64,000 nt of DNA, taken from positions 1 to 64,000 of the forward strand of contig PDZV01000009.1 in assembly GCA_002753135.1 (NCBI GenBank), given 5' to 3'. The notes under the pieces were generated by a model. The model had not been told where the DNA came from. It worked only from the letters and a program-made list of their open reading frames with translations, and did not search any database. Made by a program: the position numbers and the translations under genes. Source of the DNA: Magnetococcales bacterium WMHbinv6. GTDB lineage: Bacteria > Pseudomonadota > Magnetococcia > Magnetococcales > Magnetaquicoccaceae. Positions 7,811 to 52,249 of the stretch are shown in pieces (within the stretch, counting starts at the first letter, position 1; every line of letters begins with the position of its first letter).

Positions 7811-7852
7811 GCCATCAAAAAAGGCCCCCGAAAGGGGGCCTTTTTTGATGGC
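7811..7852. terminator. Strong bidirectional intrinsic terminator
   Basis: Perfect 19-bp arms (7811-7829 and 7834-7852) with a GAAA tetraloop. The stem is GC-rich at its top and flanked by A6 and T6 tracts, so it works on both strands: for the SulP gene (plus) and for cobA (minus), which ends at 7859. Confidence 0.95.
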
Positions 7853-7858
7853 ATATGG

Positions 7859-8692
7859 TCAACCCGGCTGCACCGTCTGATCCAAAAACCAGGACATCTG
7901 CTCCCGGTAACGGACCACCTCACCAACCACGATGATCACCGGCGGTTTCATCTGACAGGTTGCCACATCTTCGTTCACCCGCCCCAGCGAGGTGACCAAC
8001 GTGCGCTGTTGCGGGGTGGTGGCCCACTGAATCAGTGCCACCGGTGTTTCTGGCGAACGCCCGCCCGCGATCAACCGTTTGCTGACTTGTGCCAAATTTT
8101 TCATCGCCATGTACAACACCAAAACCGGAAAGGTGCGGGCAATAGACTCCCAATCCAGACGGGAACTCAACTCCTCTTCCCCATCCCGAAAGCCGTTGTT
8201 TTCTGCCGACTCATGACCGGTGATAAAGGCCACATTGGCATTGACTGCCCGATGGGTGATCGGAATGCCCGCATAGGCCGGACCGGCTATTCCAGAGGTC
8301 AAACCGGGAATAATGCGAAAGGGTATCTTTTCGGCAAACAGGCGGCAGGCCTCCTCCCCGCCTCGCCCGAAGACAAAAGGATCCCCCCCTTTGAGTCGCA
8401 CCACCCGCCGCCCGGCCTGCGCCAGACTGACCAGGGTATCACAAATATCGGCCTGATTGGTAGAACAGGGGTTGCCGCCCCGCTTGCCAGCCGAAATCAC
8501 CTCAGTCGTGGCGGGAATCAACTGCATGATCGTGGGCGATACCAAGGCATCATGCACCACCACATCGGCAGCCTGCATCGCCTTGAGCGCGGCAACGGTC
8601 AACAAATCCGGATCCCCCGGCCCAGCCCCGACCAAGGCAACGCTACCCGGCGGCAAATAATCACTCTCGACACTGATCAGCACACCACTCAC
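7859..8692 (-). CDS. cobA: Uroporphyrinogen-III C-methyltransferase (SUMT)
   Basis: A 277-residue single-domain SUMT that uses two SAM to turn uroporphyrinogen III into precorrin-2, the branch to siroheme, cobalamin and heme d1. Family motifs are clear: 'VALVGAGPGDPDLLT' near the N-terminus, 'VVHDALVS', 'AGKRGG', and 'VRLKGGDPFVFGRGGEE', then 'PGLTSGIAGPAYAGIPITHR'. No CysG dehydrogenase/ferrochelatase part is fused. The ATG overlaps the stop of the upstream c-heme gene (ATGA, 8689-8692), so the two are probably translationally coupled. It ends at the terminator shared with the SulP gene. Confidence 0.95.
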   Translation of the reverse strand: MSGVLISVESDYLPPGSVALVGAGPGDPDLLTVAALKAMQAADVVVHDALVSPTIMQLIPATTEVISAGKRGGNPCSTNQADICDTLVSLAQAGRRVVRLKGGDPFVFGRGGEEACRLFAEKIPFRIIPGLTSGIAGPAYAGIPITHRAVNANVAFITGHESAENNGFRDGEEELSSRLDWESIARTFPVLVLYMAMKNLAQVSKRLIAGGRSPETPVALIQWATTPQQRTLVTSLGRVNEDVATCQMKPPVIIVVGEVVRYREQMSWFLDQTVQPG

Positions 8693-9783
8693 CGCTGACT
8701 ACTCCTTCCTTTCTCGTTGCCCCCCTGTCGCGCCGGATTGCTCCAGGGGCCTTGCCAAAACCAGGGTGGCGGATAATAACCGGGATAGTAAGCTCCCATC
8801 GACGCCATGCGTTGCGCATTGCGGCGCAACAGATCCTCTACCCGATCGACAGGCAACGGCCCGTGACATCCGGCACAGTTGTACCAATAGAAACGCTGGT
8901 TCTGCCGCCGTTGTGCCTGCTGCGCCGGATTGGGACGCGCTGCTGGTGGTGAATTGGATTTTTTGATCACACAAAAGGAGGAGACCGTCGGTTTGCTCGC
9001 TTCGCCTGCGGTTTGTCCACTGCTTTCCGAACTTTCCTGGAAAATTTCCGTTCCGCTTGGCGGCCCACTCACCGCCGCTTCTTCGGTTGTCGGCACAACA
9101 GCTGCCACTTTCCCCTCCGGTGGCGCTGCCAGCAGATCGGGCGAGTTTGCACTCTCTGCCAATGATGGCACTCCTTCGGCAACGGTTTGCTCGCCCGGCG
9201 GAGCCGCTTCTGCCGCGACGGCAGGGGTGGCGGCAGGAAGGCTCTCCGACAATGGCTGACTGGGTATTGTTGGCTCGGATGCAGCGACCTGTTGCGGCAG
9301 CACAGCAGTTGCCGCCGGCACAGCCACTTCCGCTGCTGACGGGTTGCTTGCTGCAGCAGGCAGCGCACTTGCTTCGGTGGAAATCGGCTGTTCCGTGATG
9401 GCCGGGCTGGCGGCTACTGACTCAGCAGGTAGCATCGACGAGGGGGCAGCACCGTCACCGGCTGTCATCAACACGCTGCTGTTGGCATTGTTGAGCGGAG
9501 GCTGTTCCGCAACCGGCACGGTATCCACCACCTCATCGGCAGACGTTTCTGGCATTTTTTGCTCGACGGCTGCGCTTTCGCGACCGGGCTGCCCGGATGC
9601 AGTCTCATGGCTGGCGGTCAACTCCGTTTGTTGATCCGCCGTCGACTCGATGGCGGTATGGATGGCCTCGACTGGCGCTGATTCCGGCATCGCCTGCACA
9701 TAAGCGCTGCTCATCCCCAACCAAGCCAACACACCGACCACTCCCCAGCGTACCCCGCCGTTGCGCTGCCCAAGCCTGCTCAT
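8689..9783 (-). CDS. Secreted low-complexity protein with one C-terminal c-type heme motif
   Basis: 364 residues. A likely signal peptide follows the ATG at 9783 ('WGVVGVLAWLGMSSAYVQA'). Residues ~35-270 are Ala/Pro/Glu/Ser/Thr-rich with no recognisable fold and look disordered. Near the C-terminus is a single heme-attachment motif CAGCH (Cys303, Cys306, His307), followed by a Tyr/Pro/Trp-rich stretch ('YYPGYYPPPWFWQGPW'). The likely picture is an exported monoheme protein on a long linker. The family is not known to me. An in-frame extension upstream to 9945 lacks signal-peptide sense and overlaps the neighbouring gene. It overlaps cobA by four bases. Confidence 0.7.
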   Translation of the reverse strand: MSRLGQRNGGVRWGVVGVLAWLGMSSAYVQAMPESAPVEAIHTAIESTADQQTELTASHETASGQPGRESAAVEQKMPETSADEVVDTVPVAEQPPLNNANSSVLMTAGDGAAPSSMLPAESVAASPAITEQPISTEASALPAAASNPSAAEVAVPAATAVLPQQVAASEPTIPSQPLSESLPAATPAVAAEAAPPGEQTVAEGVPSLAESANSPDLLAAPPEGKVAAVVPTTEEAAVSGPPSGTEIFQESSESSGQTAGEASKPTVSSFCVIKKSNSPPAARPNPAQQAQRRQNQRFYWYNCAGCHGPLPVDRVEDLLRRNAQRMASMGAYYPGYYPPPWFWQGPWSNPARQGGNEKGRSSQR

Positions 9784-9826: not shown

Positions 9827-10801
9827 TTAGCCGACCCATCCTTGACCAGGCGGCGTTTCCACCAAAGCCCGCACCACTTCACACCAACCTTTGGCAATAT
9901 TGTTGGCATTATAGCCCCCACCTCCCAATGCCAACACCCGTCCATGCCCCATCGATTCTGCCAATTGTACCAGACGCGCCGTCACCAGATAGTGCGTGGC
10001 CGGAGAGAGACGCAACTGGGTAATCGGATCACCGGCGATGGAGTCGGTACCCGCCTGCAAAATGAAAAATTCCGGCTTGTGTTGCTGCAAAAAGGCCACA
10101 ACCTGAGGCCAAACCTGGGCAAAATGGCTGTCACCGGCTCCGGGTGGCAGACAAATGTTCAATTTGCTCCCTTCAGCCTCCCCTTTGCCTCGTTCGTGGC
10201 TGAAACCGGTTCCCGGATACAGGGTGCGACCATCTTGATGCAAATCGGCAAAGATCAAATCAGGATCGGTTTCAAACGCATAAAAAACACCGTCGCCATG
10301 GTGGGCATCAATATCGATATAGGCCACTTTGCGAATGCCATGTTTGGCCCGCAAGGCATGCACCACCACCCCGGCGTCGTTAAAGACGCAAAAACCACCG
10401 GCCATCTCCGGTCGGGCATGGTGCAAACCGGCAATCGGAATAAAAGCCCGCCGATAGCGGCCTGCCATGATATCCTCCATCGCCTGCAGCGCCGAACCGA
10501 CCACATGCACCGCAGCTTCAAAGACACCCGGAAAGGCGGGTGTATCGCCATGATCCAACAAACCAAAACCGCTGCGCGAACAAGCCTGGACCAAAGCCAC
10601 ATAGGAAGGATCATGAAAACGGTGCAAATCTTCCACACTGGCCGCCACCGGTTGGCGAACGGCCACCCGATTGTCCAAACCGGTACGGCACGCCTCCTGC
10701 CAAAATACCCCCATGCGATGCGGACCGAAGGGATGTCCGTCAGGAAATCCATAACGAGCAATCTCTTCACCGATGGTTACACTGGTCAGAAATTCGGCCA
10801 T
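9827..10801 (-). CDS. Histone-deacetylase-like / acetoin-utilisation-type zinc hydrolase
   Basis: 324 residues of the HDAC/AcuC/acetylpolyamine amidohydrolase superfamily. The active site is visible: tandem His 'GLHHARP', zinc ligands in 'DIDAHHGDGV' (Asp and His) and 'AGTDSI' (Asp), and the late 'GGGGYN' Tyr. Bacterial members deacetylate acetyl-lysine proteins, acetylpolyamines or related amides; the substrate is not predictable here. I chose the ATG at 10801 with AGGA five bases upstream. A TTG at 10837, right after the previous stop, would add 12 residues and is less likely. It sits 36 bases downstream of rquA on the same strand. Confidence 0.9.
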   Translation of the reverse strand: MAEFLTSVTIGEEIARYGFPDGHPFGPHRMGVFWQEACRTGLDNRVAVRQPVAASVEDLHRFHDPSYVALVQACSRSGFGLLDHGDTPAFPGVFEAAVHVVGSALQAMEDIMAGRYRRAFIPIAGLHHARPEMAGGFCVFNDAGVVVHALRAKHGIRKVAYIDIDAHHGDGVFYAFETDPDLIFADLHQDGRTLYPGTGFSHERGKGEAEGSKLNICLPPGAGDSHFAQVWPQVVAFLQQHKPEFFILQAGTDSIAGDPITQLRLSPATHYLVTARLVQLAESMGHGRVLALGGGGYNANNIAKGWCEVVRALVETPPGQGWVG

Positions 10802-10837
10802 AGCCTTCCTCGTATGCAACTGGAGTTGAACAGACAA

Positions 10838-11647
10838 TCAAGAAGTGGCGGCAGAGGCAGGATCAACCGCCAGCGACTGCATGCGTTCCAGGACCACTTT
10901 CTGATAAAGCCCACCGAAATAGGTCTCCTGCCGCACCCGCCCGATACAGGTCAGGCTGTGGGCCGCCGGACGTTTGGCACAACAATCCATTGCCCAGGAG
11001 ACAATATCCTGTTTCCACAGATTGAGCGCGAACGGCTCAAGAAAAAACAAAATGGGAATCATCACGTAGCGAAACGGGTTCAGCAGCGAGGGACGATGAT
11101 AATCGACAAAAATCACCTTGCCACCCGGCTTCACCACGCGCATCGCTTCACAAACCGTTTTCCGGCGCACCTCATCCGGTTGTTCATGCAGCAGAAAAAA
11201 TAAAATCACATGGTCAAATTCGCCATCGGAAAAATTGAGTGCGGTTGAATCCTGATGGTGCAAATGGACATTGGTGGTGCCATCCAATTTGCTGCGCAAA
11301 TTTTCCAGTTGCACCGGTGCCACGTCGATCACGTCCAAACGGGCATCCGGAGCCAGACGCTGCGCCAAACGGGGGGTAAAATCACCATAAACACAGGCCA
11401 CCTGCAGGGTACGACCTGGCAAAGTCTCACCCATCTCCGCCAGGGCAGCATCACGCAAACGGGCAAAATTTCCCCACAAAATTAAATTTACCAACCACTG
11501 CCGCTCAAAAAACCGAACCCCTTTCGGGTGCAGATAGGCCCACCAGTAGGTCTGCTCCAGATATTGTGGCACCACCAGTTCCTCCGAAATACGCAACGGT
11601 ATTGCCGCACTCGAAGCAGATCTGCCCGCAACCACGCCTTTATCCAT
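10838..11647 (-). CDS. rquA: RquA-like rhodoquinone biosynthesis methyltransferase homologue
   Basis: 269 residues with a class I SAM-binding fold ('TLQVACVYGDFTPRLAQRL', 'LDVIDVAPVQLENLR', 'VKPGGKVIFVDYHRP'). The N-terminal block 'LEQTYWWAYLHPKGVRFFE' followed by 'QWLVNLILWGNFARLRDAAL' and 'FFLLHEQPDEVRR' match my memory of RquA, which converts ubiquinone to rhodoquinone by placing an amino group from SAM on the ring. Rhodoquinone serves fumarate reduction under low oxygen. The ATG at 11647 is preferred over a TTG at 11692; its AGGAAA site is rather distant. It leads a minus-strand cluster with the HDAC-like, c-heme and cobA genes. A UbiE-like methyltransferase is the alternative. Confidence 0.72.
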   Translation of the reverse strand: MDKGVVAGRSASSAAIPLRISEELVVPQYLEQTYWWAYLHPKGVRFFERQWLVNLILWGNFARLRDAALAEMGETLPGRTLQVACVYGDFTPRLAQRLAPDARLDVIDVAPVQLENLRSKLDGTTNVHLHHQDSTALNFSDGEFDHVILFFLLHEQPDEVRRKTVCEAMRVVKPGGKVIFVDYHRPSLLNPFRYVMIPILFFLEPFALNLWKQDIVSWAMDCCAKRPAAHSLTCIGRVRQETYFGGLYQKVVLERMQSLAVDPASAATS

Positions 11648-12765: not shown

Positions 12766-14430
12766 TTACCGTTCCGGTATCGCAAAATCCATCACCAGTA
12801 AACGTTTTCCCTGCCGAAGGCCGACCGCATCGGTCAAGGTGCCAATCGCGATACCCACCTCCTTGAGAGAAGTCTGCATCAAAAGGCGACAGGCTTCCGG
12901 TTGCTCCAACCAGCGATGGATCACCGCCTCTTCCTGGCGATCCAGCCATAACAGATACTCATAGCCCGCCGCCGATCGATAGCCCTGTTGCCGCCAACGG
13001 GCAAACAGATCCCTGCCGTCGACGCTCTTGATCCCTGGCCGGCGCTGCAGCACCTGCTCCCGGGCATGCCCCGCTGCCGCCTGCGCCAACGACTCCTGCC
13101 AACGCAAAGGAGCTGCCGGCACCATCTCCTGCGCCCCACAACGCCGCTTTTCGCTGCGCAACTGATTCAACAGCGACAGGATTCCTGGCGCAGTTTGCGT
13201 CTGCACATCTTGCCCCTGCTGGCGCACGGCTCCTGCCCTTAATTCGGGATAAACCTGTCGCAACCCCTCTTCCAACTCGCCATACAACGCCGCCGCACGC
13301 GCCGCATCGTAGCCATTGAACAGCGCAACCAAACTTATATCATTTCCATGCTGCGTCCACTGCTCCGCCAGCGCGTGCATACCCCGTTGCACCCCCTCCA
13401 TCTGCCAATACTGCCCGGTCTCTCCAGCACGACGGGGTTCGCCGCTGCCCAACCAGTAGGCGGTCACAAAGCGACCCAGGGCACGGGCTGTGGCAATCAA
13501 ACCACCGGCAGCCAGCAAATTTTCCTGGTGATACCCTCCATCCGGCGCATAGACCTGTTTGCCGGGGGCAAACAAGGAGGGCACCAAGGTATCGTCGATA
13601 TATTCCGGCTCTCGACCATCCCGGTCTGCGGGTAACGAACGGGCAGCCTGCACCTCACTGGCCGCCACCTGCAGCGGAGCAAAAATCAGCTGATGCATCA
13701 AATCGACGTAGCTTTTGCCACCCGCCTGCTCAACCACCAAGCCAAGCAGTTCATACCCCAGATTGGAGTAGGCCTTGGCAGTACCAACCGGCGGTTGCGG
13801 CGGCTTGAGCAGGGCATAACGCAATAAATCCAGACGGGCAGGTGGCACCGCCACCCCCAATTGCTGCGCCACCCGCAACTCCATCAAAGCCGGATCTTCC
13901 TGGCGACTGCCCAATCCAGCCTGGTGCGCCAACAAATGCTGCAGCGTTACCGCTTCCCAACCGGTTGCCACAGACCAATGGGTTGGAATCGTCAGCCAAC
14001 ATCTCCCCTTATGGTTTTTTTCAGAAAAACAAAAAGCATAATCGCTGAGCTGCAACCGCCCCTGCCGTTGCAAACTCTTCAGCATGGCCTGGGTAATCAG
14101 CTTGGCAAGACTGCCAATACGCAACAGGGCAGTCGGCTGCATGGCAATCCGTTGCGCCCGATCCGCCCAACCAAAACCCTGTTCAAAGACAATCTGACCA
14201 TCCTTGACCACCAGCAGCACACCGCCCCGATAGGCACGCTGTTGCATCGCCTGCAGCATCGCCTGCTGCAAGGGGTGCCACTGTCCGACGGTTTCTCTTT
14301 GCGGCGCAAAATTTTCTCCAGCGGCATACCCCAAACCACTGGCAAAAAAGAGTACAACAGCAAGCAGTCGTTCTACAAAAACGCAGCGCAACCCAAAAAA
14401 CGGTTGAGCTGCCCCTTTGTCATCACTCAT
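12766..14430 (-). CDS. Serine beta-lactamase-like hydrolase fused to a CAP-like domain
   Basis: 554 residues. A signal peptide or anchor ('LLAVVLFFASGLGYAAGENF') precedes a class C beta-lactamase/penicillin-binding-like domain (~45-390). It has the catalytic SxxK motif 'GSLAKLIT' (Ser107, Lys110) and a YxN-type motif in 'AYSNLGYELLG'. The C-terminal ~130 residues resemble a CAP/SCP-PR1 domain: 'LLNQLRSEKRRCG', 'LRWQESLAQAAAGHAREQ', 'RWLEQPEACRLLMQTSLKEVGIAIG'. The CAP region lacks the usual 'FSHxxSDG' and 'GENI' strings, so it is degenerate. Family members are esterases or peptidases acting in the envelope. The start overlaps the stop of the HD-GYP gene by four bases. Confidence 0.82.
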   Translation of the reverse strand: MSDDKGAAQPFFGLRCVFVERLLAVVLFFASGLGYAAGENFAPQRETVGQWHPLQQAMLQAMQQRAYRGGVLLVVKDGQIVFEQGFGWADRAQRIAMQPTALLRIGSLAKLITQAMLKSLQRQGRLQLSDYAFCFSEKNHKGRCWLTIPTHWSVATGWEAVTLQHLLAHQAGLGSRQEDPALMELRVAQQLGVAVPPARLDLLRYALLKPPQPPVGTAKAYSNLGYELLGLVVEQAGGKSYVDLMHQLIFAPLQVAASEVQAARSLPADRDGREPEYIDDTLVPSLFAPGKQVYAPDGGYHQENLLAAGGLIATARALGRFVTAYWLGSGEPRRAGETGQYWQMEGVQRGMHALAEQWTQHGNDISLVALFNGYDAARAAALYGELEEGLRQVYPELRAGAVRQQGQDVQTQTAPGILSLLNQLRSEKRRCGAQEMVPAAPLRWQESLAQAAAGHAREQVLQRRPGIKSVDGRDLFARWRQQGYRSAAGYEYLLWLDRQEEAVIHRWLEQPEACRLLMQTSLKEVGIAIGTLTDAVGLRQGKRLLVMDFAIPER

Positions 14431-24817: not shown

Positions 24818-25603
24818 TCAGGGCGCAGACTGATGGGTCGGCATCACATACTGCGCAATCTCTTGCATGGCGGGAATATCCAACAGACGTACATGTTTGC
24901 CGGTCACATTCAGCAGTTTTTTGGTCTGAAAACGTTTGAAGGTACGGCTGACCGTCTCCATGGAAATACCCAGAAAATTGGCAATATCCTGACGCAACAT
25001 GGCCAGTCGAAACAGTTCGCCACCCAATCCGTGCCGCGTATAGCGCTCCGACAGATTCAGCAGAAAAGCGGCCAGACGTTCATCGGCGCTCTGCCGGGCT
25101 GACAAAATAAAATGATGTTGCTGTTTGGCCAAATGAATCGCCAACACATTGATCAACTGTTCCTGAAAATGGGGAAAGCGGTCGCCCAACAAATCCAGTT
25201 GATTGAGAGGCAACCAGCACACTTGCGTGTTTTCCAGGGCAACGGCAGTCGATTGATAATGGGTGGTACGGATGGCTTCCAGTCCCAAGAGTTCACCAGG
25301 CAAAATAAAACTGAGGATACGCTCTGTCTGCTGCGGGGTATTGAGATAGGCCTTGACCCCCCCCTCTTTGATGGCATACACCCCATGAAAGGGTTGCCCT
25401 TCCCGGAAGACGGTCTCTCCTTTGGGAACCGGTCGTTGCCGAAAGAGAAAAATTTGCGCCAATTCCAATGGAATTTCATTGAACAACTGCAAGAAACCGT
25501 GAAATTCGCATTGGGCGCAAGCCACTTCATTGCGCCGTGGCGAACGAATGTTGATCATCCGTTCTGCCACGCCAGAAGCAGCCTTCTTTTCAGTAGGATG
25601 CAC
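24818..25603 (-). CDS. FNR/CRP-family regulator with an incomplete Fe-S cysteine set
   Basis: 261 residues. The cyclic-nucleotide-fold sensor (~45-165) and C-terminal winged helix are clear; the recognition helix 'QDIANFLGISMETVSRTFKRFQ'-type segment (about residues 205-227) carries the E..SR residues of FNR that read TTGAT half-sites. E. coli FNR binds a [4Fe-4S] cluster with Cys20, 23, 29 and 122. Here Cys29 and Cys32 ('VACAQCEFHG') and Cys129 ('TQVCWLP') match three of these, but the third N-terminal Cys is Leu. A cluster could use another ligand or be absent. The start is taken as the GTG at 25603 with a purine-rich site upstream; an ATG at 25558 keeps all three Cys. It likely regulates low-oxygen genes. 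Confidence 0.9.
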   Translation of the reverse strand: MHPTEKKAASGVAERMINIRSPRRNEVACAQCEFHGFLQLFNEIPLELAQIFLFRQRPVPKGETVFREGQPFHGVYAIKEGGVKAYLNTPQQTERILSFILPGELLGLEAIRTTHYQSTAVALENTQVCWLPLNQLDLLGDRFPHFQEQLINVLAIHLAKQQHHFILSARQSADERLAAFLLNLSERYTRHGLGGELFRLAMLRQDIANFLGISMETVSRTFKRFQTKKLLNVTGKHVRLLDIPAMQEIAQYVMPTHQSAP

Positions 25604-49241: not shown

Positions 49242-50258
49242 GTGAACGCCTCTTCTGCTCTTCCGACCGTCTTCAGCGGTGCCCAACCGACCGGGCAACT
49301 GACTTTGGGCAACTATCTGGGTGCCCTGCGCACCTGGGTGCGCATGCAGCAGGAGTATGCCTGCATCTTCTGTGTGGTCGATCTGCATGCGCTGACCGTG
49401 CGCCAGGATCCGGCACAACTGCGGGAAAATATTTTTGAGTTGACCGCCCTCTATCTGGCCTGTGGCATCGATCCGGAACGCAGCATCATCTTTCTGCAAA
49501 GCCATGTGCCCGCCCACTCGGAACTGGCCTGGCTGCTGGCCACCTTCACGCAAATGGGCGAACTGGAAAGGATGACCCAGTTCAAGGATAAATCCCAGCA
49601 ACACCATCAAAACATCAACGCCGGACTCTTCACCTATCCGGTGTTGATGGCCGCCGATACTCTTCTCTACCAAACGCACCGGGTGCCGGTTGGCGAAGAT
49701 CAAAAACAACATCTGGAACTGACCCGCGATGTTGCCATCCGCTTCAACGGCTTGTATGGTCCCGTCTTTCGCGTGCCCGAACCGCTGATTGGTACCGACG
49801 GCGTGGCCCGGGTCAAAGATCTGCAGGAACCCACAAAAAAAATGTCGAAAAGTGCCGCCTCAGAACTGGCGCGCATCATGTTGCTCGATGATGCGGACGC
49901 GGTGGTGAAAAAATTTAAAAAGGCGGTGACCGATACGTTGGGCGTGATCCGTTATGACGAGGTCAACCAACCGGGTGTGGCCAATCTGCTCAACATCTGG
50001 TGCGCCGCCACCGGTCACAGCCGTGAAGAGGCTCTCGCCCATTTCGACCACAACCAGTACGGTAAATTGAAAATGGAAACGGCTGAGGCGGTCAACACCG
50101 TTTTGCAACCCATCCGCAGCCGTTTTATGGAATTAAATAACGACCGGGGCCAATTGAAGCAACTGCTGCGCCAAGGAGCCGAACAGGCCCGCGCCCAAGC
50201 TGATCGTACCATGCACCAGGTCTGGCAAGCCCTTGGTTTGCCAACCAGTCGCACCTAA
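49242..50258 (+). CDS. trpS: Tryptophanyl-tRNA synthetase
   Basis: 338 residues of class I TrpRS. The HIGH-equivalent is 'FSGAQPTGQLTLGNYLGALR', the KMSKS loop is 'EPTKKMSKSAASELARIM', and 'YPVLMAADTLLYQTHRVPVG' and 'EDQKQHLELTRDVA' are the Trp pocket. I choose the GTG at 49242, with AGGAG about 11 bases upstream; an ATG at 49209 would add 11 non-conserved residues. The rluB gene follows after 50 bases. Confidence 0.96.
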   Translation: MNASSALPTVFSGAQPTGQLTLGNYLGALRTWVRMQQEYACIFCVVDLHALTVRQDPAQLRENIFELTALYLACGIDPERSIIFLQSHVPAHSELAWLLATFTQMGELERMTQFKDKSQQHHQNINAGLFTYPVLMAADTLLYQTHRVPVGEDQKQHLELTRDVAIRFNGLYGPVFRVPEPLIGTDGVARVKDLQEPTKKMSKSAASELARIMLLDDADAVVKKFKKAVTDTLGVIRYDEVNQPGVANLLNIWCAATGHSREEALAHFDHNQYGKLKMETAEAVNTVLQPIRSRFMELNNDRGQLKQLLRQGAEQARAQADRTMHQVWQALGLPTSRT

Positions 50259-50308
50259 TGCTGCCCCTGTCGGGGCAGCGACCACAAACAATAAATCAGG
50301 ATACCAAA

Positions 50309-52249
50309 ATGACAGCTGAAGCGGTCCGGTTACAAAAATGGTTGGCGGAATCGGGTCTCTGTTCCCGACGCGAGGGAGAAGAGTGGATTCTGCAGGGCCG
50401 GGTCACCATCAACGGCGAGGTGATCAAACAGCTGGGCAGCAAGGTCAATCGCGGCGATCAGGTATTGGTCGATGGTCGGGTGGCAGTGCCGCTGCGGGAA
50501 CCTTTGCGGGTGATGATGCTGCACAAACCAGCCGGGGTGGTATGTACCCGCAAAGATCCGGAAAATCGTGAAAATGTCTTTTCCCTGCTCGGTGAAGGGC
50601 ATGCCCGTCTGATCAGTATCGGTCGCCTGGATTATAATTCGGAAGGGTTGCTGCTTTTCACCAACCATGGCGAACTGGCCCACCGATTGATGCACCCCTC
50701 CACCCAAATTGACCGCACCTACCGGGTGCGGGTCCATGGCCGTATCGATCCGCCCACTCTGAGCCGTCTGCAAGCCGGGGTGATGCTGGAGGATGGACCA
50801 ACCGGCCCGTTGAATCTATCTGTGGATCAGGTGGTCGGAGCCAACAGTTGGTTGACCATCACCCTGCAGGAGGGACGCAACCGCATCGTGCGCCGCATTT
50901 TTGCCGCCTTCGAGATGGATGTATCCCGTTTGATCCGGGTGCAATATGGCAGCTGCCAACTGGGTGATTTGCCCCGTGGGCAATGGCGGGCCTTGTTGCC
51001 GCAGGAGATCAAAGCCTTGTTGGCCCCGCTGCCAGGGGCCGCTGCCTGGTGGCGGGAACCGAAAAAAGCCCCCGCCGCGACTGGTGAGTATGGACGAAAG
51101 CGACGCCTGACAACCAACTCCGGTTCCGAAAAATTTTCTCCGGCAGAACGCAACACGCGCCCCCGCCAGGATAGTGCCTGGGCAGACACAGCCGCCCCGA
51201 CCATGGCGCAATCCTCCCACAAGCGGGCCACGCCACGCCCGGAGACGGAAAAATCTTTCCCGAGCGAACGTCCGGCACGCGCACGCCAGGCCGCTTTCTC
51301 TGCCGATCATGGGGCAGCGCCAAGAGGACGGACCAACCCGTTCACAGCGACGGATCAAGGTTTCGCAAGTGAACGACCGGCACGCCAAGGCTCTTTTTCC
51401 TCAGAAAGGGGTGCCCCGCCGAGAGAAAAAACCGCCCGCAATCGGGACAATTCGTTTACGGAGAGGGAAGAATCTTTCCGGGGCGAACGTCCAGCACGCA
51501 CACGCCAAGCTGCTTTTTCCACTGAAAGAGCTGCCCCACCAAGAGAGAGAGCCGCCCGCAATCGGGACAATTCGTTTGCGGAGAGGGAACAATCTTTCCC
51601 GGGCGAACGCCCAGCACGCGCACGCCAGGCTGCTTTTTCCACAGAAAGAGCTGCCCCACCAAGAGAGAGAGCCGCCCGCAATCGGGACAATTCGTTCGCG
51701 GAGAGGGAACAATCTTTCCCGGGCGAACCTCCAGCACGCACACGCCAGGCTGCTTTTTCCACAGAAAGGGCTGCCCCACCAAGAGAGAGAGCCGCCCGCA
51801 ATCGGGACAATTCGTTCGCGGAGAGGGAACAATCTTTTCCGGGCGAACCTCCAGCACGCGCACGCCAGGCTGCTTTTTCCACAGAAAGAGCTGCCCCACC
51901 AAGAGAGAGAGCCGCCCGCAATCGGGACAATTCGTTTGCGGAGAGGGAACAATCTTTTCCGGGCGAACGTCCGGGGCGCGCACGCCAAGGCAGATTCTCC
52001 CCAGCGGAAATGGAGCGGAACAGCGCAGGCCATACCCCACGGCGCAGCGCGCGGGATGGCATGACCTCTTCCCGTCCGCGTGCCGAAGCCCCGATGAGCG
52101 GAGCTGCCGTGCGACAGCGGCAGGAGAGCGGTACTGCAGCCTCTCCACCACGGCGCGAGGAGAGTTCTCGTCGTACCGTAACCCCCTCTTCCCGTCCGGC
52201 AGCGGTCAGCAAACGGAGAACAGAGCATGGCACACGTGGCAAAAAGTGA
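50309..52249 (+). CDS. rluB: 23S rRNA pseudouridine synthase RluB-like, with long Arg/Glu-rich repeat tail
   Basis: 646 residues. Residues ~1-245 form a standard RsuA-family enzyme: S4 domain 'VRLQKWLAESGLCSRREGEE', the catalytic Asp in 'ISIGRLDYNSEGLLLFTNHG', and 'QEGRNRIVRRIFAAFEMDVS'. It pseudouridylates 23S rRNA (position 2605 in E. coli). The last ~390 residues are a low-complexity basic tail built from 40-residue repeats such as 'RNRDNSFAEREQSFPGERPA'. RluB and RluF proteins often have basic tails, but this one is exceptionally long. The ATG at 50309 has AGGAT nine bases upstream. The end overlaps pepN by 23 bases. Confidence 0.92.
   Translation: MTAEAVRLQKWLAESGLCSRREGEEWILQGRVTINGEVIKQLGSKVNRGDQVLVDGRVAVPLREPLRVMMLHKPAGVVCTRKDPENRENVFSLLGEGHARLISIGRLDYNSEGLLLFTNHGELAHRLMHPSTQIDRTYRVRVHGRIDPPTLSRLQAGVMLEDGPTGPLNLSVDQVVGANSWLTITLQEGRNRIVRRIFAAFEMDVSRLIRVQYGSCQLGDLPRGQWRALLPQEIKALLAPLPGAAAWWREPKKAPAATGEYGRKRRLTTNSGSEKFSPAERNTRPRQDSAWADTAAPTMAQSSHKRATPRPETEKSFPSERPARARQAAFSADHGAAPRGRTNPFTATDQGFASERPARQGSFSSERGAPPREKTARNRDNSFTEREESFRGERPARTRQAAFSTERAAPPRERAARNRDNSFAEREQSFPGERPARARQAAFSTERAAPPRERAARNRDNSFAEREQSFPGEPPARTRQAAFSTERAAPPRERAARNRDNSFAEREQSFPGEPPARARQAAFSTERAAPPRERAARNRDNSFAEREQSFPGERPGRARQGRFSPAEMERNSAGHTPRRSARDGMTSSRPRAEAPMSGAAVRQRQESGTAASPPRREESSRRTVTPSSRPAAVSKRRTEHGTRGKK
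51240..52000 (+). repeat. 120-bp tandem repeats inside rluB
   Basis: Units of exactly 120 bases begin near 51432, 51552, 51672, 51792 and 51912, the last one partial, with degenerate copies before them from 51240. Central units differ at only a few bases. Each unit encodes 40 residues. The near identity at the DNA level points to recent expansion or homogenisation. Confidence 0.92.

Follow-up and report, generated by a model that had tools for sequence, protein, structure and literature searches.

RquA of R. rubrum converts ubiquinone (UQ) to rhodoquinone (RQ) with SAM and Mn2+, as reported in the accessible text on this enzyme (PMC9814641). The protein would bind SAM and replace a methoxy group of ubiquinone with an amino group taken from SAM, and the resulting rhodoquinone would serve as a quinone of lower potential. 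The available part of the study by Chobert et al. (PMC11707229) describes rquA in nearly all Magnetococcia genomes, with the gene in 30 of them (32 added, 33 counted), all without the O2-dependent ubiquinone pathway; it also reports that RquA from Magnetococcus marinus is functional in E. coli, and that M. marinus contains both RQ8 and UQ8. According to the accessible text of Stairs et al., rquA is not found near candidate quinone biosynthesis genes and is often located near respiratory genes (PMC5953543). As for complex II, an SdhB with an extra cysteine and a cysteine-rich SdhE are features described for the E-type enzymes in the accessible sections of PMC2680327, where SdhABE of Wolinella succinogenes is reported to reduce fumarate with a low-potential quinol, with no detectable succinate oxidation activity, and the E-type enzyme of Acidianus is described as a succinate:quinone reductase. 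A 2023 review, in its accessible part, states that no structure of an E-type complex II has been reported (PMC10238741).

Here we analysed a window of 64,000 nucleotides (contig PDZV01000009.1), from a genome of 3.84 Mb in 80 contigs, 96.3% complete, of a member of the Magnetococcales close to the candidate genus 'Ca. Magnetaquicoccus' (GTDB genus). Because Chobert et al. report rquA and RQ8, the presence of the gene is already known for the order, and the window rquA is an ordinary, well-supported addition to a family documented in its group. The less expected parts are a deacetylase gene that follows rquA throughout the order and, encoded elsewhere in the genome, a complex II of unusual type; the accessible text of PMC11707229 mentions neither a deacetylase neighbour nor the type of complex II. 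Reading of the open frames of the window places rquA in a minus-strand frame (the preliminary description named no strand), and the locus is composed as follows:

7825..7837, minus strand: terminator-like hairpin with a T run, directly behind cobA, a possible transcript end (consensus match only)
7859..8692, minus strand: cobA-type uroporphyrinogen-III C-methyltransferase (TIGR01469, 302 bits, cut-off 185)
8689..9783, minus strand: proline/alanine-rich open reading frame with one CXXCH (haem c-type) motif, between the deacetylase gene and cobA (read from the frame; the start at 9783 is our own reading)
9827..10804, minus strand: HDAC-family Zn deacetylase, 325 aa from ATG 10804 with AGGAAGG upstream, frame open to TTG 10837 (PF00850, 258.7 bits)
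10838..11647, minus strand: rquA, rhodoquinone biosynthesis enzyme (SAM-dependent amino transfer, methyltransferase fold), 269 aa (NF038261, tree, AlphaFold model)
11249..11251, minus strand: codon of Asp133 (HHQDST), which fits R. rubrum D143 by spacing
11324..11326, minus strand: codon of Asp108 (LDVIDVAPVQL, post-motif I), which fits R. rubrum D118 by spacing

The start of rquA was set at ATG 11647, preceded by AGAAGGA as a plausible ribosome site; a longer version starting at TTG 11692 is an alternative.

A preliminary description of this DNA had recognised RquA from an N-terminal block and SAM motifs, and this identification was borne out. The NCBIfam equivalog model NF038261 matched the window protein over its entire length (profile positions 1-218 of 218) with 304.4 bits against a cut-off of 175 and an E value of 4.7e-91, so that the match is not due to chance, and the blocks YLEQTYWWAYLHPKGVRFFERQWLVNLILWGNF (N-terminal), LQVACVYGDFT (altered SAM motif I), FFLLHEQP and FGGLYQKVV are largely conserved in 34 aligned RquA proteins. 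The protein might instead be an ordinary SAM methyltransferase, UbiE-like or of another kind, with a resemblance to RquA, since it has the class I methyltransferase fold and SAM-binding layout in common with the UbiE/COQ5 and UbiG enzymes and passes general methyltransferase Pfam models, including the broad UbiE model PF01209 (51 bits, cut-off 20). However, the UbiE/MenG-type models gave only 27 to 57 bits and none reached its cut-off (158 to 420), the host's own UbiE and UbiG sit elsewhere in the genome, and motif I differs from that of the own UbiE (FLDVAGGTGDLA). Moreover, in a quick tree of 99 rows (95 RquA-type rows, obtained by merging rows with identical cores from 124 to 96 and leaving out the truncated row L135, plus four methyltransferases of the own genome), the window protein fell inside RquA, apart from UbiE, UbiG and two other methyltransferases of the host (SH-aLRT 99). 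The preliminary description had named placement among UbiE-like methyltransferases as the result that would speak against rquA; the tree gave the opposite result, as far as any tree can, and, together with the profile scores, led us to reject a UbiE-like identity, to which we assign a negligible probability. The closest partners of the window RquA in the tree are 'Ca. Magnetaquicoccus inordinatus' UR-1 and an allied Magnetococcales MAG (SH-aLRT 100), and UR-1, with 90% identity, is also the nearest named relative among the best 80 of 539 relatives. The position of the root inside RquA carries little meaning in this quick tree because the outgroup branches are extremely long.

The residues regarded as diagnostic for RquA were found as well. 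In addition to the altered motif I, Asp108 and Asp133 are invariant in all 34 aligned RquA proteins; in a wider set, the former is kept in 35/35 rows and the latter is replaced by Asn in five of the 35 (L012 and four f18 rows). The distance of 25 residues between them equals that of D118 and D143 in R. rubrum, as given in the accessible text of PMC9814641, and the correspondence is one of spacing only. A search of the PDB by sequence gave no solved relative of RquA, the best matches being general methyltransferases; an AlphaFold model, built with the sequences of the window and of relatives (mean pLDDT 86.5), predicts the fold of class I SAM methyltransferases, and yeast Coq5 ranked second when PDB folds were searched. 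Thus, the window protein resembles the R. rubrum enzyme in its full-length match over the NF038261 cut-off, its altered SAM motif I, its aspartate spacing and its non-conserved N-terminus, and differs from it in that most RquA proteins of the window's genus have, in the wider alignment, about 11 extra residues inserted ahead of FGGLYQKVV, and in the deacetylase neighbour, which is fixed here. We are highly confident that the gene is a working rquA, against which stand this insertion, the very long outgroup branches mentioned above and the accessible report of an rquA from outside Pseudomonadota that gave no rhodoquinone in E. coli (PMC13386864), because of which homology is no guarantee of RquA activity. 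In another family of the phylum, divergent RquA-like proteins were observed in four genomes (G051, G054, G057 and G060; L073 to L076), with scores (171 to 186 bits) on either side of the 175-bit cut-off and with Asn at the position of Asp133.

The distribution of rquA was evaluated in 61 genomes, namely 48 Magnetococcales (the own genome included) and 13 others. The gene exceeded the NF038261 cut-off in 40 of the 48 Magnetococcales and in 26 of the 27 of good quality (completeness of 90% or more, contamination of 5% or less); the exceptions are G007, which is 98% complete and has none, G026, in which 207 bases of the gene lie at the end of a contig, and six genomes of 57 to 76% completeness. 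In a 90-row RquA tree the Magnetococcales require three changes; nevertheless, constraining their 39 rows to one clade was not rejected (AU p 0.731), and the log likelihood of the constrained tree exceeded that of the quick free tree by 11.85 units. Order-wide presence, conserved gene order and a single clade that is not rejected point to old vertical inheritance of rquA within the order, as judged from the sequences, and do not favour a recent lateral acquisition by this lineage. Hence the patchy lateral spread invoked in the preliminary description is a property of rquA in Pseudomonadota at large, not in Magnetococcales. Carriage of rquA by viruses or plasmids was also considered and rejected: viral contigs contained no relative of the window RquA, and among plasmids only two Rhodococcus records gave a partial match of 28%. 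A separate observation concerns a record titled Synechococcaceae cyanobacterium SM1_2_3 (JAAUTD010000020, L134), whose RquA is placed with those of Competibacteraceae in the tree, pointing to a bin that is mislabelled or mixed.

The substrate of RquA could be supplied by the host itself. With equivalog cut-offs in brackets, the own genome encodes UbiU at 492 bits (440) and UbiV at 331 (275), clustered with a UbiX-type gene on another contig; UbiG reaches 286 bits against 103 and the UbiE/MenG subfamily model 267 against 158. The profile set comprised UbiU, UbiV, UbiX-type, UbiG and UbiE-type proteins. By contrast, O2-dependent Ubi hydroxylases exceeded their cut-offs in none of the 48 Magnetococcales genomes, versus 12 of the 13 others, and an O2-independent ubiquinone route, as predicted from the genes, is present. 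Menaquinone was considered as an alternative low-potential quinone and discarded, MenD being over its cut-off in G024 alone of the 48 Magnetococcales, a genome that carries rquA as well, and MqnC in 0/48 (G029 and G039 gave 410 and 394 bits against 428); in G007, the good genome without rquA, neither was over its cut-off. Ubiquinone from the O2-independent route would then be turned into rhodoquinone by RquA. M. marinus offers a close comparison (PMC11707229), being of the same order, with the same gene and, as in the window genome, only the O2-independent ubiquinone route; it belongs to a different genus, and RQ8 and UQ8 were measured there. Given the identity of the gene and the activity of M. 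marinus RquA, rhodoquinone is probably made in the host too; taking the rquA and RQ8 data of that study together with our identification, rhodoquinone synthesis by this lineage is well supported.

The preliminary description had gone further, and proposed that rquA implies anaerobic respiration based on fumarate reduction, with a quinone-directed fumarate reductase to be looked for. RquA and the UbiU/UbiV/UbiE/UbiG route are indeed there; respiration does not follow from rquA. In the search for a reductase, the classical complex II anchor PF01127 was found in 0/48 genomes of the order versus 12/13 of the others, and E. coli-type FrdC in 0/48, whereas on another contig of the own genome we found:

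G000:C27:4771-8385 (L086): E-type SdhABE, in the order SdhA, SdhB (329 aa) and CCG-domain SdhE

The SdhA, with 790 bits against 567, is the only SdhA/FrdA over cut-off in the own genome; the third cluster motif of SdhB (CTRCAMCIDSCP) contains an additional cysteine, and SdhE contains 11 Cys and matches PF02754 (CCG) in two stretches with 75.9 bits. Relatives of SdhE with at least 67% identity occur in 44 of the 48 genomes; G012 and G014 have pieces at contig ends, and none was found in G015 and G046 (74 to 76% complete). SdhA precedes SdhE by 1.0 to 1.3 kb on the same strand in 42 genomes. Since SdhABE was found and the classical anchors are absent, complex II here is of the E-type, in which a CCG-domain SdhE takes the place of a haem-b anchor, and the order seems to have no other complex II. 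The enzyme resembles W. succinogenes SdhABE, as described in the accessible text of PMC2680327, in its SdhA, its extra-Cys SdhB and its cysteine-rich SdhE, as well as in the probable availability of a low-potential quinol. It differs from the methylmenaquinol:fumarate reductase (MFR) of Wolinella in remaining below the MFR equivalog cut-offs (SdhA 524.5 against 1100, SdhB 187 against 600, SdhE 189 against 500 with NF042965), in a quinone that would be rhodoquinone rather than methylmenaquinone, and in an SdhA that, by our reading of its start, has no Tat signal, unlike the exported Wolinella enzyme. As the Acidianus E-type enzyme is described as a succinate:quinone reductase, the direction of SdhABE cannot be read from its sequence. 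Some genomes (e.g., G009, G010 and G026) contain two high-identity copies of SdhE.

Electrons of rhodoquinol may pass to SdhABE and reduce fumarate, whether as part of fumarate respiration or of the reverse TCA cycle. An E-type rhodoquinol:fumarate reductase, with the reverse TCA cycle as its possible purpose, is a proposal open to testing. That rhodoquinone is mainly for anaerobic fumarate respiration would agree with the coupling of rhodoquinone to fumarate known elsewhere, according to the accessible texts of PMC5953543 and PMC9814641, and with the occurrence of rquA alongside a complex II related to the Wolinella methylmenaquinol:fumarate reductase (the 189 bits with NF042965 being below the 500 required). 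We consider this rather unlikely as the main use, because E. coli-type FrdC is lacking in all 48 genomes, the own SdhA has no Tat signal, and the reconstruction of UR-1, in its accessible part, gives nitrate and nitrite reductases as anaerobic routes (PMC6783814). On the other hand, rhodoquinol could mainly drive fumarate reduction by SdhABE so that CO2 is fixed through the reverse TCA cycle, leaving ubiquinone for respiration. The accessible text of PMC6783814 refers to the autotrophic cycle as reported in M. marinus MC-1 and as a prediction for UR-1, and counts fumarate reductase as a key enzyme; SdhABE, kept in the order to the extent given above and accompanied by no PF01127 anchor, is the only complex II found, and its Wolinella counterpart works in the required direction with a low-potential quinol (PMC2680327). 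This use is weakened by the opposite function of the Acidianus enzyme and by G007, which keeps SdhABE without rquA, so that SdhABE is not strictly dependent on rquA; we regard it as a serious candidate, a little short of an even chance. Because the reverse TCA cycle of M. marinus and UR-1 needs a fumarate reductase, autotrophy appears, by analogy, at least as likely as fumarate respiration as the use of rhodoquinone. If rhodoquinol does reduce fumarate through the E-type complex II, rhodoquinone would be tied to autotrophy. In its available part, the study of Chobert et al. goes no further than suggesting a check for fumarate reductase gain (PMC11707229), and our literature search, with most subscription papers outside it, found no earlier statement pairing rhodoquinone with E-type complex II in Magnetococcales.

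The second unexpected feature is the gene behind rquA. It encodes an HDAC-family deacetylase whose active-site His-His, Asp, His, Asp and Tyr are invariant in 20/20 aligned sequences, with roles that we take to be those of the HDAC8 residues. Its predicted structure (pLDDT 89.7) has P. aeruginosa HDAH and Sphingomonas propanil hydrolase as the nearest PDB folds; the catalytic residues are also common to these enzymes, which are 27 to 28% identical to it, and the Magnetococcales enzyme further differs in adjoining rquA. Cleavage of aryl amides is known among HDAC relatives, for example in propanil hydrolase. The deacetylase lies directly after rquA on the same strand in all 39 rquA-bearing Magnetococcales genomes with sequence to show it (of the 40 with rquA, G011 is not counted because its contig stops within the gene; in G004 a contig end truncates the deacetylase). 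In the loci measured, the alignment of the deacetylase begins between -24 and 107 bases from the stop codon of rquA, and the two genes may be co-transcribed. Outside Magnetococcales the deacetylase was beside rquA in none of 56 loci, which include 51 that are non-Magnetococcales by record title among the best 80 of 539 relatives (50 of them with at least 1.1 kb of room, and L163 with only 242 bases after rquA) and five more distant genomes. The loci of the genome survey and those of named relatives overlap partly in genomes and were counted apart. A literature search on rquA with histone deacetylase returned nothing related. In another family of the phylum, a deacetylase relative with 59% identity (G054:C1:101720-102652) is not adjacent to the RquA-like gene.

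Does this adjacency have a functional meaning? It may simply be inherited gene order, a reading that we slightly favour. All cases come from one order and are not independent for this reason; cobA, and amiC-ubiG-rluD in seven groups, also stay close; in addition, RquA alone is enough for the reaction in vitro, as reported in the accessible text of PMC9814641. However, the rquA-deacetylase pair is kept in all 15 family/genus groups, whereas clustering of 36 loci gave no upstream neighbour of rquA kept in five loci and three groups, and G007, 98% complete, is without both genes, which an assembly gap may explain. The fixed pair provides a concrete candidate for a second protein of rhodoquinone metabolism. 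In the boldest form of this proposal, the Magnetococcales would have a rhodoquinone module unlike the known ones, in which a dedicated HDAC-family amidohydrolase deacylates the aminoquinone or deacetylates a protein of the rhodoquinone branch, and the E-type complex II, fed by rhodoquinol, acts as a rhodoquinol:fumarate reductase in the service of CO2 fixation through the reverse TCA cycle and not only of respiration; we judge this combination to be quite improbable. The gene itself is one more RquA in a group with documented RquA and rhodoquinone, and its setting could matter more: the deacetylase partner and the exclusive E-type complex II, each with a presumed role, raise the interest of the locus somewhat.

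Among the 36 loci whose open reading frames were clustered, rquA is present in 35 (15 family/genus groups), the deacetylase in 34 (also 15 groups), cobA in 26 (13 groups), and an AmiC-like amidase, ubiG and a RluD-like gene in 11 each (seven groups each); cobA is thus near the rquA-deacetylase pair in 13 of the 15 groups. The ubiG gene, the AmiC-like amidase and, mostly, the RluD-like gene were observed near rquA, the deacetylase gene and cobA in L041, L053, L056, L057, L062, L064 to L066, L068, L071 and L078, the block being on the other side in L041 and L078; the UbiG profile match was confirmed in one such locus and in the own genome, there on another contig. The proline/alanine-rich frame at 8689..9783 had no Pfam match, and a 35% match in only one genome, of the same genus (L044 and L092).

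As for regulation, terminator-like matches in the region were 8 against 5.9 expected, with no significant excess, and there was no promoter-like match before rquA on its strand. Two overlapping matches to the FNR pattern TTGAT-N4-ATCAA, with 2 mismatches, lie 21 to 38 bases upstream of the rquA ATG; since the pattern occurs 50 times in the window (28 expected), no conclusion on FNR was drawn for rquA, and control by FNR was set aside. The window also encodes a Crp/Fnr-type regulator (24818-25603), whose best match is the Fnr subfamily with 185 bits against 228, a beta-lactamase-family domain (PF00144) fused to a CAP domain (PF00188) at 12766-14430, under all the beta-lactamase cut-offs listed, and, as read from the list of open reading frames, a pseudouridine-synthase-like frame with an Arg-rich repeated tail (50258-52249).
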